A DNA stretch of 39,077 nt from Bacteroidota bacterium (GTDB lineage: Bacteria; Bacteroidota; Bacteroidia; Bacteroidales; FEN-979), in NCBI GenBank assembly GCA_026391755.1, contig JAPLDN010000344.1:1-39077 (forward strand). Reading direction: 5' to 3'. The stretch's first letter is position 1, and each line of letters opens with the position of its first letter. Both the position numbers and the translations under genes were made by a program. The notes under the pieces were generated by a model. That model did not search any database. It saw only the letters and a program-made list of their open reading frames with translations, and had not been told where the DNA came from. Shown here one piece after another: positions 352 through 37,123 of this stretch.

Positions 352-1857
352 TTACAGGTCATGTCCGCAATACGATAAATTAAAACTCTTGTTACATAAG
401 GGGAAATCGGAGATTTCCTGGTTCCTTACAGCCAGCGCCAACGACATCCAGTTATGGAATGAAGGGTCTTTTACCTTGTAATGAATGATCTTCCCGTCCT
501 GGTCTGTGACTGCGGAATGCATTATCTCGCCCCTCCAGCCCTCGGCCAGCGACAAGGCAAAGCTTGAATGCTGAAGTTTGAATTCATATAAAGGTTGAGC
601 CGGATCCCTTTCAAAATCATTTATACTTAGAAGACCCCTGATCAGCTGAATTGATTTCTCAACTTCCTGCTTCCTGAGCATGGCCCTGGCCCAGACATCC
701 CCCTGGTGAAGGGTTCCGGGCTCATAATCAGAATCGGTAAAGGCCTGGAAGGGATGCGACCACCTGATATCACGTTTGACCCCGCTGCTTCTGGCAGCCA
801 TTCCAACAGCACCTATCATCCCTGCCTGGCGTGCATTGATTTTTCCTATACCTTCAAAACGACTGAGGACGCTGGGGTTTGTGAACATCTCATGCGTGAT
901 CTGCCCGAATCTTTTTTCAACCTCTTCCAGGTTTGAAAGCAGGATTTTAATAAAACCTCCGCTTAAAGGATAATGGCCTCCACCTGTCCGAACGAGGCCT
1001 TTCCCGAAACGGTTCCCGCACCACGACTGGGTTGTATTGATAACGATGGTGCGCAGGGCTTCATTCACAACCTGTCCGAACTGATAGGCAATATCGGTGC
1101 AAAGTGCTGCCGTGTCGCCAATGTGGACAGCGATCCGTTCAAGCTCGAGCGCAATAATGCGTTCGCTTGGCACGACTGCAGCAGGTGTTATTCCTGCAAG
1201 GATTTCCAACAGCTGGGCATGGGCGATTGAGTGACCCACTGCGGTATCGCCTGAAATGCTCTCAGCCAATACGGCACGCTGTATTCCCGAATGCTTTTGC
1301 AGGAATAGTGATTCTATTCCCCTGTGCTGGAAACCCAGCTGAATCTCAAGGTGCAGGACTTTCTCCCCATTGCAGCAGAAGCGAAAATACCCCGGTTCGA
1401 TGATCCCTGCGTGGATGGGGCCTACGCCCACTTCATGGATGCCTTCGCCTTCGATGGAGAAGAAGGGATATCGGATATCCGATATCTGATATCTGACATC
1501 TGACATCTGATATCGTACCGGTTTCATCCAGGGATGCCCTGTGAATTTCACTCCATATTGTTCACTGATCTCTCGTTCATACAGATGAAATGAAGGATGT
1601 GAGACAGTTAGAGAATCAAGCACAGGAATGGGAGAGGATTGCTGTTCATGTGAAAGCAGTACCAGGAAATGATCACTGTCGGATGCGATGCAGCAGAAGA
1701 ACCTGAGTGCTGCGCCAAGCGGTACCGCGTGATATGTAACGCAGTGGCATCCCTCATCCGCCATCAATAAATTTATGTTATCCATGAATTCAGGATAACC
1801 GAGGAGAGGGATATCGGCGAGAGGAACAATAAAGGGGTTTGTATTAAGTATCAGCAT
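352..1857 (-). CDS. Fused NuoC/NuoD-like large subunit of a group-4 hydrogenase-related (Ehr-type) complex, without NiFe cysteine ligands
   Basis: EGEGIHEVGVGPIHAGIIEPGYFRF, LEIQLGFQHRGIE, KVKDPSFHNWMSLALAVRNQEISDFPLCNKSFNLSY typical of the HycE/HyfG/NuoD family; operon context. Confidence 0.85.
   Translation of the reverse strand: MLILNTNPFIVPLADIPLLGYPEFMDNINLLMADEGCHCVTYHAVPLGAALRFFCCIASDSDHFLVLLSHEQQSSPIPVLDSLTVSHPSFHLYEREISEQYGVKFTGHPWMKPVRYQMSDVRYQISDIRYPFFSIEGEGIHEVGVGPIHAGIIEPGYFRFCCNGEKVLHLEIQLGFQHRGIESLFLQKHSGIQRAVLAESISGDTAVGHSIAHAQLLEILAGITPAAVVPSERIIALELERIAVHIGDTAALCTDIAYQFGQVVNEALRTIVINTTQSWCGNRFGKGLVRTGGGHYPLSGGFIKILLSNLEEVEKRFGQITHEMFTNPSVLSRFEGIGKINARQAGMIGAVGMAARSSGVKRDIRWSHPFQAFTDSDYEPGTLHQGDVWARAMLRKQEVEKSIQLIRGLLSINDFERDPAQPLYEFKLQHSSFALSLAEGWRGEIMHSAVTDQDGKIIHYKVKDPSFHNWMSLALAVRNQEISDFPLCNKSFNLSYCGHDL
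1466..1514. repeat. Heptanucleotide tandem array, 7 copies of NGAYATC (ggatatc ggatatc cgatatc tgatatc tgacatc tgacatc tgatatc), inside the large-subunit CDS
   Basis: Direct reading; encodes YQMSDVRYQISDIRY on the minus strand. Confidence 0.95.
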
Positions 1858-10169: not shown

Positions 10170-11069
10170 ATGATTCAGCCACCATACCTTAAGCGAGGCG
10201 ACAGGATCGCGATTGTAGCCCCGGCCCGGGCGATTTCCTTCGACGAAGTTCATCCGTCTATGAAATTATTCCAGAAATGGGGGCTTGAAGTCATCCTGGG
10301 ATCCTATGTTTTCAACATTGAAAACCAGTTTGCAGGCAGCGATGCCCAGAGGCTGAAGGATTTGCAGACCATGCTCGATGATGCCTCAATAAGGGCTGTT
10401 ATTTGCGCCCGTGGAGGTTACGGCATGGTTAGGATCATCGACAAGCTGGATTTTACCAAGTTCATGAGATATCCGAAGTGGATCGTAGGATACAGTGATA
10501 TGACAGTGCTGCATTCACATATTCACCGTCATTTCGGGATTGAGACACTGCATGCCACCATGCCCCTGAATATGCCGGAGCATCAGCTTGGCAGTACATC
10601 TGTAGAAACGCTCAGGAAGGCTTTGTACGGAGAGGAGATCATCTATTCCAAAAGAATTGGCGCTCTCGATCGCACAGGAGCCGGGGAAGGCATACTTGCC
10701 GGAGGCAATCTCTCGATTTTATACAGTCTTATGGGATCACATTCCCAGATCGACACCAGGGGGAAGATCCTTTTCATTGAAGATGTTGATGAATACCTCT
10801 ACCATATTGACCGCATGATGATGGGCCTGAAGCGAGCCGGGATGCTCAAAGATCTCAAAGGCCTGATCGTTGGAAGCATGCATGAAATGAGAGACAACAC
10901 CATACCCTTTGGCAAAACTTCCAGTCAGATCATTTTCGAGGCAGTTAAAGAATACAAATACCCGGTTTGTTTTGATTTTCCGGCAGGCCACTGTCCTGAA
11001 AATGTGGCTATGATCCTTGGACGCAGGGTGAAGCTGATCGTGGATGAAGAGGTGGAGCTGGGGTTTTAG
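10170..11069 (+). CDS. S66 family LD-carboxypeptidase (LdcA/MccF-like)
   Basis: YLKRGDRIAIVAPAR, ICARGGYGMVRIIDKLDF, WIVGYSDMTVLHSHI, ILFIEDVDEYLYHIDRMM. ATG at 10170 (ORF track uses GTG at 10164). Confidence 0.92.
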   Translation: MIQPPYLKRGDRIAIVAPARAISFDEVHPSMKLFQKWGLEVILGSYVFNIENQFAGSDAQRLKDLQTMLDDASIRAVICARGGYGMVRIIDKLDFTKFMRYPKWIVGYSDMTVLHSHIHRHFGIETLHATMPLNMPEHQLGSTSVETLRKALYGEEIIYSKRIGALDRTGAGEGILAGGNLSILYSLMGSHSQIDTRGKILFIEDVDEYLYHIDRMMMGLKRAGMLKDLKGLIVGSMHEMRDNTIPFGKTSSQIIFEAVKEYKYPVCFDFPAGHCPENVAMILGRRVKLIVDEEVELGF

Positions 11070-11128
11070 CGGGATTACTGGATAGCTGGATGACTGGATA
11101 GCTGGATAAGGGATAACGGGATGACTGG
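11068..11128. repeat. Short tandem array of ~8-nt units (agcgggat tactggat agctggat gactggat agctggat aagggat aacgggat gactgg)
   Basis: Direct reading; begins at the stop codon of the S66 peptidase gene. Confidence 0.85.
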
Positions 11129-11523: not shown

Positions 11524-11536
11524 AATGTACATCGAA

Positions 11537-11571
11537 CTCATGCCTCATGGCTCATGACTTATGGCTCATCT
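11537..11571. repeat. Heptanucleotide tandem array, 5 copies CTCATGN (ctcatgc ctcatgg ctcatga cttatgg ctcatct)
   Basis: Direct reading; fills the gap between yraN and the RNase H stop codon. Confidence 0.85.
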
Positions 11572-12203: not shown

Positions 12204-12253
12204 CGTTTCTATATCAGCCCAAAAATATGATTAATTTTGGACACTTACTTGAA

Positions 12254-12316
12254 CAGTGAATAGTGAACAGTGACCAGTTATCAGTCACCAGTCACCAGTC
12301 ACTAGTCACCAGTCAC
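12254..12316. repeat. Heptanucleotide tandem array, 9 copies, consensus CAGTCAC/CAGTGAA
   Basis: cagtgaa tagtgaa cagtgac cagttat cagtcac cagtcac cagtcac tagtcac cagtcac, ending 7 nt before an ATG. Confidence 0.95.
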
Positions 12317-12323
12317 CAGGAGA

Positions 12324-13823
12324 ATGTCGTCAATCAAGCGCCTTGCCTCACAAACTGCAGTTTATGGGATCCCTACAATCCTGGGACGATTCCTGCAGTA
12401 CCTCCTGGTCATACTGCTTACAAGGATATTCTCCAAGGCAGAGTACGGTACTATCAGCGTGTTTTATTCCTATGCCTCCTTTCTCATGGTAGTTTTGACC
12501 TATGGGATGGAAACTGCATTTTTCCGTTTCAGCGAAAAAGAAGAGGATAAAGACAGCGTCTTCAGTACCGGAATGATTTCATTACTGCTCACTTCGGCTT
12601 CTTTCATTTTCCTGGCCAGCTTATTTTCCGGAACAATTGCAGGATGGATTGATTATCCCCTGCAGGCAAAATACGTTATCTGGTTTGCCTGGATCCTCGG
12701 TCTCGACGCCCTGGTTGCCATCCCGTTTGCAAGGCTGCGCTCCCAAAATAAAGCTGCAAGGTTTGCGACTTTGAAAATGATCAATATTTTTACAAATATA
12801 GGACTGACCTTGTTCTTCATTGTAGCCTGTCCGTATGCCTGGAAGCATTATCCGTCGGTTCAGGGGGTTTTGGGCCTGGTTTACCGCCCCGACTGGGGAA
12901 TAGAATATGTTTTCATCGCTAACCTTGCAGCCAGCATAATTACCCTTGCTTTACTCCTGCCCATGTTGTTGAACATGAGATGGAAAATGCATAAGGTCTT
13001 ATGGAAACGAATGCTGTTTTATGCTTTTCCCTTACTGTTTGCAGGACTTGCCGGGATGGTGAATGAAACTTTCGACCGCCTCATGCTGAGATATCTCCTT
13101 CCGTATTCGAGGGAGCTCACCGAGGCACAGGTGGGGATTTACAGCGCCTGTTACAAGATATCCATCCTGATCACCTTGTTTGTGCAAGCCTATCGCTTTG
13201 CGGCAGAGCCCTTCTTTTTTGCCCATGCCAGGGAGAAGGATGCCAGGCAAACATACGCCCGCATCATGGATTATTTCATCATCGCAATTTCCACGGTATT
13301 CCTGGTCACCATGCTGTATCTCGACGATATCTTCATCCGCCTTATAGGAAAAGATTTCAGGGAAGGCAAAGCTGTCATCCCCGTTCTGATGCTTGCCAAC
13401 ATCTTTCTCGGGATCTATTACAATCTTTCCATCTGGTATAAGCTTACCGGGAAAACGATCTGGGGTGCCTGGCTTTCTTTGATAGGGGCGGTAATCACCT
13501 TGGTGTTGAACTTCTGGTGGATCCCACTTAGCCCCGACCACCTTATTCACGGGTATATAGGTTCGGCCTGGGCAACATTTATATGCTACGGATCCATGAT
13601 GGTGATCGCTTACCTGCTCGGACAAAAATACTATCCGGTACCTTACAGGATCTGGAAAGCAGCCGGCTATACCGGTTTTGCACTTCTTCTCTATCTGATC
13701 AGCGCTTATCTAAGTATCCAGCATCCAGTATCCCGCATCCTCTTTCATACCGGATTGCTTTTTGTTTTCCTGCTGACGGCTTTCCTAGTCGAAAAGCCTC
13801 GACTTGTCAAGGCTTCCGATTGA
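12324..13823 (+). CDS. Polysaccharide biosynthesis/oligosaccharide flippase family membrane protein
   Basis: SSIKRLASQTAVYGIPTILGRFLQYLLVILLTRIFSKAEYGTISVFYSYASFLMVVLTYGMETAFFRF; multi-TM; AGGAG RBS. Confidence 0.9.
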   Translation: MSSIKRLASQTAVYGIPTILGRFLQYLLVILLTRIFSKAEYGTISVFYSYASFLMVVLTYGMETAFFRFSEKEEDKDSVFSTGMISLLLTSASFIFLASLFSGTIAGWIDYPLQAKYVIWFAWILGLDALVAIPFARLRSQNKAARFATLKMINIFTNIGLTLFFIVACPYAWKHYPSVQGVLGLVYRPDWGIEYVFIANLAASIITLALLLPMLLNMRWKMHKVLWKRMLFYAFPLLFAGLAGMVNETFDRLMLRYLLPYSRELTEAQVGIYSACYKISILITLFVQAYRFAAEPFFFAHAREKDARQTYARIMDYFIIAISTVFLVTMLYLDDIFIRLIGKDFREGKAVIPVLMLANIFLGIYYNLSIWYKLTGKTIWGAWLSLIGAVITLVLNFWWIPLSPDHLIHGYIGSAWATFICYGSMMVIAYLLGQKYYPVPYRIWKAAGYTGFALLLYLISAYLSIQHPVSRILFHTGLLFVFLLTAFLVEKPRLVKASD

Positions 13824-13856: not shown

Positions 13857-14291
13857 ATGAGAATCAGGATAGTAAACAATTCCCGCCATCCTTTGCCGGC
13901 ATATGAAACCGCTGCTTCGGCGGGCATGGACCTCAGAGCTTTTATTTCCAATGAGATGATTCTGAAACCCCTCGAAAGAGCAATGGTACCTACGGGATTA
14001 TTTATTGAACTCCCGCTGGGATTTGAGGCCCAGGTAAGGCCCCGAAGCGGCCTGGCCATTAAAAAAGGTGTTACGGTACTGAATACCCCGGGCACAATAG
14101 ATGCCGATTACCGGGGTGAGATCAAGGTCATTCTCATTAATTTATCGAATGAGGATTTCATAGTTAAGGACGGGGACAGGATTGCGCAAATGATCATTGC
14201 AGCTCACGAAAAGGCCGAATGGATGCAGGTGGATAAACTGGAAGAAACAAGCAGGGGTGCCGGGGGATTTGGGCATACTGGAGAGAAGTGA
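13857..14291 (+). CDS. dut: dUTP diphosphatase
   Basis: [65 protein letters not shown] canonical motifs. Confidence 0.97.
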
Positions 14292-14313
14292 CCAGTGACC
14301 AGTCACTAGTCAC
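14286..14313. repeat. Heptanucleotide array, 4 copies (aagtgac cagtgac cagtcac tagtcac), same family as 12254-12316
   Basis: Direct reading; the dut TGA stop lies in the first unit. Confidence 0.9.
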
Positions 14314-14342
14314 TTAAAACAAAGGGTTGAACTATTAAAGAA

Positions 14343-34127: not shown

Positions 34128-34143
34128 ACGTTCTTTTTTTATC

Positions 34144-34213
34144 TGATATCTGACATCTGCCATCCGATATCCGATATCGGATATCTGATATCGGATATCG
34201 GATGGCAGATGCT
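34144..34213. repeat. Heptanucleotide array, 10 copies NGATATC-type, containing the 20-nt perfect palindrome gatatccgatatcggatatc
   Basis: tgatatc tgacatc tgccatc cgatatc cgatatc ggatatc tgatatc ggatatc ggatggc agatgct; abuts the polA stop codon. Confidence 0.95.
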
Positions 34214-37100
34214 AATGCGCCAGCAGCCAGTTCGCCCCGGTATTCATATCGATCTCTACAGGAACATCCAGCAGCAAAGCAGTCTTCATCCCGGCTGCAA
34301 CAATTTTTTTAACTTCATCAACTTCAGGCTGATAAACATCAAAAACAAGTTCGTCATGCACCTGGAGGATCATCCTTGATCTCAGTTTTTGATTTTCAAA
34401 CTTATCAAAAATTCTGATCATGGCAATTTTTATCATATCTGCAGCCGTTCCCTGCACCGGTGCGTTGATGGCATTTCGTTCGGCAAATCCGCGAACATTG
34501 GCATTTCCCGAATTGATGTCCCTGAGGTATCGCCTGCGTTTCATCAGGGTTTCCACATAACCGTTTGCACGGGCAAAAGCAATGGTATTGTCCATATACT
34601 TCCTGATCCCCGGATACTGTTCAAAATACTGTTTGATCACATCGCCGGCTTCCTTTCGCGACATCCCCGATCGTTCCGACAAACCAAAAGAAGAGATCCC
34701 GTATATAATCCCGAAGTTCACCATCTTGGCGTTACGGCGCATATCCTTGCTTACCTCCGCAAGAGGGGTGTTATAAATTTTTGCAGCCGTAGCCTGGTGG
34801 ATATCCTCACCGTTCTTAAACGCGGCTATCATATTTTTATCCCCGCTCATGGAAGCAATGATCCTGAGCTCGATCTGGGAATAGTCGGCGCTCAGTAAGG
34901 TAAAATTCTCATTTCTCGGCACAAACGCTTTGCGGATCTCACGGCCTTTCTCGGTACGGATGGGGATATTCTGAAGGTTAGGATTATTGGAGCTCAGCCT
35001 GCCCGTCGCCGCAACGGCCTGGTTATATGAAGTATGTATGCGGTTATCGCGAGGACTGACCAGCCCCGGAAGCACATCCACATAGGTCGACTTAAGCTTT
35101 GTCAGGGACCTGTATTCAAGTATCTTGCTGATGATGGGATGCTTTGCCTCCATCTTGCTCAGCACATCCTCGGAGGTCGAATTCTGCTTGTTCTTGGTCT
35201 GCTTGGGCTTGTCAACGATTTTTAAGCGGTCGTAAAGTATATCTCCAAGCTGTTTGGGAGAAGAAATGTTGAAGGTGGTGCCTGCATCCCGGTAGATCTC
35301 TTCGGTGATCCGGGCCACCTCTTTTTCGAGTTCTCCCGAATATTCGTTCAGTACCGATGAGTCAATACGCACTCCCTCTTTTTCCATGGACGCAAGCACG
35401 GGGATAAGCGGGATCTCGATCTCGTCGAAGAGTTTGCGCGTATCGCTTTCGGCCAGCATGGGTTCGAATACATTCTTCAGCTGAAGCGTCACATCTGCAT
35501 CTTCCGCTGCATATTCCTTCACCGTTTCCGTATCAACCGTGCGCATGCTTAATTGCCCGGAGCCCTTCTTCCCGATCAGGGTCTCAATCGAAACCGGTTT
35601 GTATTTCAGGTAGATCTCCGAGAGCAGATCCATATTATGTCGCATATCAGGCTGGATCAGGTAATGCGCCATCATGGTATCAAACATTGGCGTTTGCACA
35701 TCGACACCATACCATTTTAAGATTGCGATATCGAATTTCATGTTCTGTCCGACTTTCTCGATCTTCTGATCCTCAAGTACTTCTTTGAATTCCTGGACGA
35801 TCAGCTCGGTCTCGTGGTAATTCTCGGGGAAAGGGAGGTAATACGCTTCATGCGGCTTCACCGAAAACGACATCCCCACCAGCTCCGAATTGTTGGGATC
35901 AATGCCCGTAGTCTCCGTATCAAAGCAGAATGTTTTGCTCTCTTTAAGACTGCGGATGAGGTCATGGCGGGCTTCAGGCGTGGTGACAAGAAAATAGGTG
36001 TGGGGGGTGGATGAGATGTCGGATGTCGGATGGCTGATGTCGGATGGCGGATGGCTGATGGCGGATGGCAGATGACTGATGGCGGATGGCGGATGACTGA
36101 TGGCGGATGGCGGATGGCGGATGGCTGATGGCGGATGGCTGATGTCGGATGTCGGATGGCTGATATCCGATATCTGATATCTGACATCTTCTTTTTGAGA
36201 TTCTGCATCCTGAATCCCTGCTGCCCACTTGAAAACACGTTCTCCCAGCGCCCTGAACTCCAGTTCGTCGAACAAACGCTTCAGGCGCTGCTCGTCGGGT
36301 GCTTCCATGATCAGTTTCGAGGGTTCGAAAGCGATAGGGACATCAAGTATAATAGTCGCCAGGCTTTTCGACATCAGGGCCTGGTCTTTGAATTCAATAA
36401 CTTTTTGCCTCAACTTTTCATTAGCGACTTTTTCGGGATGCTCAACCAGGTTCTCCACCGAGCCGAATTCAGCCAGCAGCTTACGGGCCGTAACTTCACC
36501 CACACCAGGGATCCCCGGGATGTTATCCGAAGCATCGCCCCATAATCCCAGCATGTCGATAACCTGTTCGGGGCTGCTTACCCCGAATTTTTCACAAACT
36601 TCCTTCACGCCCAGTATATCCACATCACCCCCGAATTTTCCCGGACGGTAGATCAGTGTGGTAGCACTTACGAGCTGTCCGAAGTCCTTATCCGAAGTCA
36701 TCATATAAGTAATCCAGCCGGCCGCTTCAGCCTGCTTGGCGAGTGTGCCTATCACGTCATCCGCCTCGAAGCCATCCACAAAAAGAACGGGAATGTTAAA
36801 GGCGTGAAGAAGTTCGTGAATAAGTGGGAGTGAGGAAATTATGTCTTCAGGAGTTTCTTCGCGATGGGCTTTGTAAAATTCGTAATCTCCGTGGCGCACT
36901 GTTGGTGCAATGGTATCGAAGGCCACACCGATATGAGTGGGCTTTTCTTTACGTAAAACATCGAAGAGGGTGTTAGCAAATCCGAAGACAGCCGAAGTGT
37001 TAACGCCTTTGGAGCTTACCCTGGGATTGTTCTTGAAAGCATAATATGCCCTGTAGATCAGGGCCATAGCATCAAGCAGGAAGAGTTTATTGTCTGGCAA
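34212..37100 (-). CDS. polA: DNA polymerase I (5' nuclease, 3'-5' exonuclease, polymerase) carrying an inserted heptapeptide-repeat linker
   Basis: KLFLLDAMALIYRAYYAFKNNPRVSSKGVNTSAVFGF; FCFDTETTGIDPNNSELVGMSFS; LLSADYSQIELRIIASMSGD; LQVHDELVFDVYQ. Start uncertain: the track's ATG at 37154 lies upstream of a promoter-like element; TTG at 37100 is possible. Confidence 0.95.
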   Translation of the reverse strand: MPDNKLFLLDAMALIYRAYYAFKNNPRVSSKGVNTSAVFGFANTLFDVLRKEKPTHIGVAFDTIAPTVRHGDYEFYKAHREETPEDIISSLPLIHELLHAFNIPVLFVDGFEADDVIGTLAKQAEAAGWITYMMTSDKDFGQLVSATTLIYRPGKFGGDVDILGVKEVCEKFGVSSPEQVIDMLGLWGDASDNIPGIPGVGEVTARKLLAEFGSVENLVEHPEKVANEKLRQKVIEFKDQALMSKSLATIILDVPIAFEPSKLIMEAPDEQRLKRLFDELEFRALGERVFKWAAGIQDAESQKEDVRYQISDISHPTSDISHPPSAIRHPPSAISHPPSAISHLPSAISHPPSDISHPTSDISSTPHTYFLVTTPEARHDLIRSLKESKTFCFDTETTGIDPNNSELVGMSFSVKPHEAYYLPFPENYHETELIVQEFKEVLEDQKIEKVGQNMKFDIAILKWYGVDVQTPMFDTMMAHYLIQPDMRHNMDLLSEIYLKYKPVSIETLIGKKGSGQLSMRTVDTETVKEYAAEDADVTLQLKNVFEPMLAESDTRKLFDEIEIPLIPVLASMEKEGVRIDSSVLNEYSGELEKEVARITEEIYRDAGTTFNISSPKQLGDILYDRLKIVDKPKQTKNKQNSTSEDVLSKMEAKHPIISKILEYRSLTKLKSTYVDVLPGLVSPRDNRIHTSYNQAVAATGRLSSNNPNLQNIPIRTEKGREIRKAFVPRNENFTLLSADYSQIELRIIASMSGDKNMIAAFKNGEDIHQATAAKIYNTPLAEVSKDMRRNAKMVNFGIIYGISSFGLSERSGMSRKEAGDVIKQYFEQYPGIRKYMDNTIAFARANGYVETLMKRRRYLRDINSGNANVRGFAERNAINAPVQGTAADMIKIAMIRIFDKFENQKLRSRMILQVHDELVFDVYQPEVDEVKKIVAAGMKTALLLDVPVEIDMNTGANWLLAH
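36014..36188. repeat. Heptanucleotide tandem array, 25 copies NGATGGC/NGATATC, inside polA
   Basis: 175 nt read directly as 25 consecutive 7-nt units. Encodes heptad repeats such as PSAISHP/TSDISHP in the polA frame and near-identical peptides in the two other minus-strand frames (ORFs 35858..36238 and 35974..36228). Confidence 0.97.
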
Positions 37101-37115
37101 ACTAATGGTTTTTGG

Positions 37116-37123
37116 CAAAGATA
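37116..37123 (-). promoter_or_regulatory. -7 element TATCTTTG for polA
   Basis: caaagata on plus strand; matches TAnnTTTG; lies inside the ORF-track polA extension. Confidence 0.45.

Follow-up and report, generated by a model that had tools for sequence, protein, structure and literature searches.

How does a tandem array of seven-nucleotide units come to lie, in frame, inside the gene of a large enzyme subunit, and does it serve the protein that carries it? The locus that raises this question was examined in the window, i.e., the whole stretch of 39,077 nucleotides analysed here (contig JAPLDN010000344.1 of the assembly GCA_026391755.1, Bacteroidales lineage FEN-979; hereafter genome G000), in seven congeners (G001-G007), and in other Bacteroidota. 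The features of the window discussed below are collected in Table 1.

Table 1 Positions of the repeat arrays and their host genes in the window
Feature	Position	Strand	Basis or remark
Large subunit of an energy-converting hydrogenase-related (Ehr/NuoCD-like) complex, 501 aa	352..1857	-	ORF, Pfam, structural relatives
Focal array, seven NGAYATC heptamers (plus-strand reading)	1466..1514	-	Residues 115-131, in frame
Perfect 20-nt palindrome within the focal array	1467..1486	.	By-product of palindromic unit
Octamer array CTGGATRR, intergenic	11067..11128	.	CTGGATRR family at same site in G002, G005 and G006
Heptamer array CTCATGG, between convergent genes	11536..11566	.	Other repeats in that gap in congeners
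Heptamer array CAGTGAN/CAGTCAC, intergenic	12249..12321	.	Inverted halves
Short heptamer array ATCCNGY	13713..13740	+	In frame near C-terminus of polysaccharide flippase
Inverted heptamer array AGTGACC/AGTCACT	14283..14316	.	Gene end
GATATC-family heptamer array	34137..34211	.	Between polA and next gene
polA (DNA polymerase I)	34212..37118	-	Pfam 5_3_exonuc, DNA_pol_A_exo1, DNA_pol_A
About 25 heptamers (GATGGC/GATGTC/GATATC plus spacer, plus-strand reading)	36012..36191	-	PolA linker between 5'-3' and 3'-5' exonuclease domains

A heptamer array in the linker of a hydrogenase-related subunit

The focal array is far beyond chance. Its units, read on the plus strand, are GGATATC (twice), CGATATC, TGATATC, TGACATC (twice) and again TGATATC, and the peptide encoded on the minus strand is RYQMSDVRYQISDIRYP. 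TRF gives a period of 7 with 6.9 copies, and identity at a lag of 7 reaches 38/42, against 25 for the best 42-position stretch in Markov windows (n = 100, 39 kb each). GAYATCNGAYATC occurs 25 times in the window vs. 0.04 expected, and three-unit matches to the focal pattern number 38 across the G000 genome (overlapping, on 19 contigs), with none for the reversed control. Letters, TRF, and lag-7 identity together confirm the seven in-frame NGAYATC units proposed in an initial annotation of this DNA. The perfect 20-nt palindrome described there is present as well, but follows from the unit: GATATC is itself palindromic, and a three-unit stretch of it forms a perfect palindrome whenever its two spacers are complementary (a chance of 1 in 4). 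The palindrome therefore adds no extra evidence, and we rejected it as a special signal. A coiled coil or other heptads at the protein level were also rejected; identity is 0.90 at a lag of 7 nt and 0.82 at 21 nt, and selection on the protein would not need identity at 7 nt.

Because 7 and 3 have no common factor, successive heptamers fall into each of the three reading frames in turn, and a gene can keep such an array only on a strand free of stops. For NGATATC the sole stop risk is TGA, created by a T in the spacer position. Over its three sense frames the focal array is free of stops, and the opposite strand has four. Among intergenic heptamer arrays (n = 96), 13 are open on both strands, 46 on one, and 37 on neither. 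This stop-codon filter explains the stop-free orientation, and targeting is not needed. The array had been described as lying in the same stop-free orientation as that of polA, which does not hold at the level of the unit: the sense-strand units are GATATC/GATGTC in the hydrogenase-related gene and GATATC/GACATC/GCCATC, the reverse-complement variants, in polA.

Within the host protein, Pfam places Complex1_30kDa at residues 68-113 and Complex1_49kDa at residues 269-410. Among solved structures, membrane-bound hydrogenase (6cfw_L) and formate hydrogenlyase (7z0s_E) are its nearest relatives, and structural homologues begin at residues 130-145. AlphaFold predicts residues 113-138 as coil with pLDDT <50 and a confident domain on either side. 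The end of the Pfam match, the start of the homologues, and the pLDDT agree with the proposed location of the array at the hinge between the NuoC-like and NuoD-like domains. As SGDT stands at the place of the relative's metal-binding CGIC motif, the subunit is probably not a hydrogen-making enzyme; without the CxxC nickel ligands, the product looks to be of the hydrogenase-related (Ehr) type and not a true hydrogenase. The distance from GHPW to HAG is 45 residues in G000 and in outgroups alike, the outgroup linkers being ordinary sequence such as RYPHNRADRTSVMDNYPFY. Since the lengths are equal, the array in G000 substitutes for linker sequence, adding no length.

A search of eight genomes of the genus with the large-subunit protein found an orthologue in six congeners besides G000. 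In five of these six, the corresponding linker contains a heptamer array or what is left of one, built from units that differ from those of G000: about 18 copies of GGATGCR in G003, four GGATGCA with three inverted CATCCCG in G006, AGGAAGC units in G005, AGGATGC/GGGATGC units in G007, and degenerate GGATGCN in G002. The linker of G001 is short and plain. In other Bacteroidota (L023, L024, L030, L036), heptamer arrays occupy a second linker of the subunit, after a helix ending at residue 412. A protein tree of the subunit joins G000 and G006 as sisters and places G003 elsewhere, with moderate support. The initial annotation had named a conserved segment shared by all orthologues as the finding that would overturn its reading; the orthologues have neither residues nor units in common, and a conserved functional segment was rejected. 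So was an artefact of a single assembly, as the same sites in independently assembled MAGs (L016-L021) contain arrays built from other units. As for the further proposal of a second independent insertion, a fresh insertion is unlikely where five of six congeners have arrays of other units, and turnover at an old array site would fit the history of the focal array better.

Arrays have periods of 7 and 8 and keep to gaps and linkers

Arrays were detected by lag identity, with statistics drawn from sampled stretches. In the stretches from G000, G003, and G006, periods 7 and 8 dominate and 14 and 16 appear as their multiples, vs. 0-3 arrays per set at periods 4-6 and 9-13; shuffled stretches yielded no period-7 array. 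Hydrogenase-gene loci in other Bacteroidota show the same dominance of 7 and 8. Array loci were sampled by their GATATC arrays, and only the unbiased subsets, in which array density is lower (38-75 per Mb), are free of that choice. Arrays are ~28 to 180 bp long. Their unit counts range from about 3 to 25 and above, and they shade into other units. Dispersed families in G000 are NGATATC (with GATGTC and GATGGC variants), GGATGCR, CATGAGC, CAGTCAC/CAGTGAC, and the octamer CTGGATRR; 23 of 54 G000 arrays fall in one heptamer class of 1172 possible, in a sample enriched for that family. All genomes are metagenome-assembled, and several contigs end at arrays, so assembly probably breaks at these 7/8-mer repeats. 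In G000, contigs C31, C47, C252, C290, and C379 terminate within or close to an array of heptamers or octamers.

Arrays inside genes make up 38 of 224 in a sample of three genomes where ~84% of the sequence is coding, with genes called by a simple finder of our own that gives approximate gene edges. Arrays tend to lie close to gene ends and are frequent between convergent genes, and many touch start or stop codons. Such positions would suit hairpin terminators or mRNA stabilisers, the coding arrays being spill-over, and transcript stabilisation has been suggested for cyanobacterial heptamer STRRs (PMC2670836). However, arrays are also found in divergent gaps and before start codons, most non-palindromic arrays lack a strong hairpin, and orthologous gaps of congeners hold unrelated repeats. 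Individual intergenic arrays may act as terminators or stabilisers, but we consider this an improbable account of the arrays as a whole. Phase variation, too, classically acts on tandem repeats within genes and ahead of start codons, and the many arrays at start or stop codons could be contingency loci, selected for changes in length that tune expression or protein linkers. Against this, the targets are housekeeping proteins (PolA, HisRS, MurG, IspG, AroA, PepA) that a 7-bp change would cut, the units are degenerate instead of pure, and no surface or restriction gene class stands out among the targets; selection of this kind is very unlikely.

Coding arrays were found in PolA, PepA, HisRS, MurG, an alanine racemase-MurF fusion, IspG, AroA, Lnt, a UvrA-like protein, and others. 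Domain positions from Pfam or structures were compared with 22 coding arrays in 18 proteins, and 15 of these arrays lie outside domains vs. 6.4 expected (P ~7e-5), which upholds the earlier claim of a repeat family at many sites that lands in interdomain linkers. Arrays within the domain models of IspG, AroA, and alanine racemase coincide, for those aligned, with insertions or unaligned gaps of solved structures. The linker of PepA has a 7-mer array in G000 and an 8-mer array in G003, and a loop of an amino-acid permease has arrays in both G003 and G006.

The strongest test of linker placement is polA across the family. In 29 genes, the linkers (5.6 kb) contain 25 arrays of period 7 and 11 of period 8. 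None of either period lies in the other 79.4 kb of these genes, and codon-shuffled linkers gave none. The polA of the window shares 84-87% identity with four congeners over almost its full length. In the PolA linker of G006 (L266 / L222-L223), a longer motif, CTGGCCTCGCTGCGCTCGGCCGATC (peptide ERSEASNPA), occurs three times among 7/8-mer-like sequence. The polA linkers of G007 and G001 (L239, L241) have a period of 12 bp, not 7 or 8, and these two genomes are also without the GATATC and CTGGATRR families.

Units turn over at shared sites and burst in single genomes

Counts of a given unit family are strongly patchy among genomes. GATATCN is found within the genus only in G000, G003, and G006 of the eight congeners; in a sample of 396 genomes from the phylum, it appears in 3 others. 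GGATGCR was counted 385 times in G003 and 1-17 times in each other congener. For AAATGGTG, G003 has 574 three-unit matches, the other seven congeners have 0-1 each, and other genera have few. The octamer CTGGATRR reaches 302 counts in G005, 237 in G006, and 62 in G000, and is absent (0) from G001-G004 and G007. One and the same intergenic site holds CTCATGG in G000, a GATATC-like array in G006, and CCAGCTAT-type octamers in G005 and G002. One unit at dozens of loci in one genome would not come from independent slippage of random seeds, so some copying in trans is needed, and we infer that repeat units spread in trans within the genome.

Taken together, the focal array is likely a non-adaptive (neutral or selfish) tandem-repeat tract of the 7-/8-bp class, produced by slippage or unequal exchange and by spread in trans, and tolerated where sequence is unconstrained. 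Repeats would grow locally by slippage (a presumed step) and unequal exchange, and would pass from array to array in trans within the genome, presumably by ectopic template switching or gene conversion. Selection would purge them except in unconstrained sequence, i.e., intergenic gaps and flexible protein linkers, and within genes survival would be limited to the stop-free strand and to lengths that keep the frame. A tolerant site would retain its repeat and have the unit swapped as new unit families burst, so that relatives differ at the same linker. The array is presumably of no benefit to the enzyme. For the preference for 7 and 8 over 5, 6 or 9, slippage alone is insufficient.

The dispersal of unit families, their bursts in single genomes, and the inverted or palindromic form of some arrays might instead indicate copies of a discrete mobile element (MITE or REP type) that a transposase inserts and that is made of heptamers by chance. 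RAYT genes are usually single-copy, and a single-copy Y1 transposase gene is indeed present in all eight congeners. However, array-poor congeners have the gene just as the others do, and no heptamer array lies immediately beside it in the loci read from G000 and the seven congeners, i.e., the repeat-flanked Y1 gene of REP/REPIN-RAYT systems was not seen in these genomes; we found no support for a RAYT mobiliser. Moreover, no fixed length or constant ends were seen among arrays, and the hydrogenase-related array left its linker equal in length to that of outgroups. Such an element is an unlikely source of the arrays. The Y1 transposase-like gene itself (L268-L275) is highly conserved, with similar flanks in all eight congeners.

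In the GATATC family, arrays could be driven by hairpin-templated (quasipalindrome) correction, in which one arm is copied onto the other, so that the palindromic unit is kept and variants are mirrored. In 22/22 mixed arrays, GACATC/GCCATC are split to one side and GATGTC/GATGGC to the other with GATATC between, giving a free-permutation product of 2e-13 that is overstated since local duplication also produces runs of like units. A strong inverted repeat occurs in 27% of GATATC arrays vs. 0.4% of random stretches. The mirroring of variants is a hint of hairpin formation, a step that simple slippage does not need. Yet the signal is weak in non-palindromic 7-mers and in 8-mers (3-4%), the arms are often unequal (19:1, 13:1), and the focal array itself has no mirrored variants. 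A hairpin layout general to all arrays was rejected, as it is clear only in the GATATC family, and as the driver of that family templated correction is conceivable but doubtful; it could be an added step of the neutral repeat turnover preferred here rather than an alternative to it.

A more speculative reading is that Bacteroidales of this family have a process that makes 7-/8-bp tandem repeats specifically, copies chosen units genome-wide in bursts, and continuously rewrites gaps and linkers, the limit to 7 and 8 being the footprint of one enzyme. If true, the linker peptides of essential enzymes would be set by whichever unit last burst. More generally, the data suggest that linker sequences of essential enzymes, e.g., DNA polymerase I, are written by a process at the DNA level and not by protein selection, which matters for interpreting fast-evolving linkers and for annotating metagenome-assembled genomes. 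To our knowledge, bacterial heptamer repeats have been reported piecemeal over decades, without a mechanism. The family offers a natural experiment, with dozens of related genomes, arrays of different units at the same sites, bursts in one species, and a clean limit to 7 and 8, and it makes both why the unit is seven and how the repeats spread testable.

Comparison with known repeat systems

By analogy, the Bacteroidales repeats appear closest to cyanobacterial heptanucleotide STRRs and, in genes, to Rickettsia palindromic elements (RPE). Cyanobacterial STRRs are degenerate 7-bp units that fold into a hairpin in the tRNA-Leu intron (P6b) and lie within functional genes (PMC3488679, PMC2670836), and a heptanucleotide STRR within rnpB of the heterocystous cyanobacteria Calothrix and Nostoc is credited to Vioque 1997, as cited in PMC2858038. 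The repeats of G000 likewise consist of tandem degenerate 7-bp units dispersed over many genome sites, and share with STRRs their lineage specificity, hairpin folding, and location in tolerant places of functional genes. Unlike the STRRs, which belong to another phylum, they include a parallel 8-bp class, many in-frame tracts in core protein genes, and replacement of the unit at the same site among congeners. RPE are in-frame repeats in many unrelated metabolic genes whose proteins tolerate them (PMC10969869), and in-frame repeats within diverse protein genes were found here as well. However, RPE are elements of about 150 bp in fixed families with conserved sequence and ends, whereas the Bacteroidales arrays, built of tandem 7/8-mers, vary freely in length (~28 to 180 bp) and lack fixed ends.

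TAACTGA heptamers have been described from Beggiatoaceae, cyanobacteria, and five Bacteroidetes as mostly intergenic and patchily distributed (MacGregor 2015, PMC4679880); only their stop-free strand can be gene-internal, and other heptamers occur alongside (PMC4679880). The mostly intergenic location, patchy distribution, and stop-codon filter recur here. In contrast to that one fixed unit, which in the best-studied genome lies mostly before start codons and in coding cases at protein ends, the Bacteroidales use many units and the linkers of essential enzymes. No rotation of TAACTGA was found among array consensuses in the sampled G000 stretches, and arrays occur in all gene contexts instead of being concentrated, in a single orientation, immediately ahead of start codons. 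The G-rich heptamers GGGAATC (Xanthomonas) and GGGGAYT (Nostoc) form dispersed arrays over-represented in non-coding DNA, as do the repeats studied here, and have been proposed to form G-quadruplexes, with a preference for four units (PMC4692102); GATATC, by contrast, has no G runs for a G-quadruplex. The Bacteroidales case thus combines traits of STRRs, TAACTGA repeats, and RPE and adds a second period of 8, turnover of units at fixed sites, and genome-specific bursts.

One locus of G000 (contig C379, L139 positions 500-650) has two hairpin-like GCGGCTTCGCCGC motifs among CTGGATRR octamers just past a stop codon, which may represent a REP-like element.
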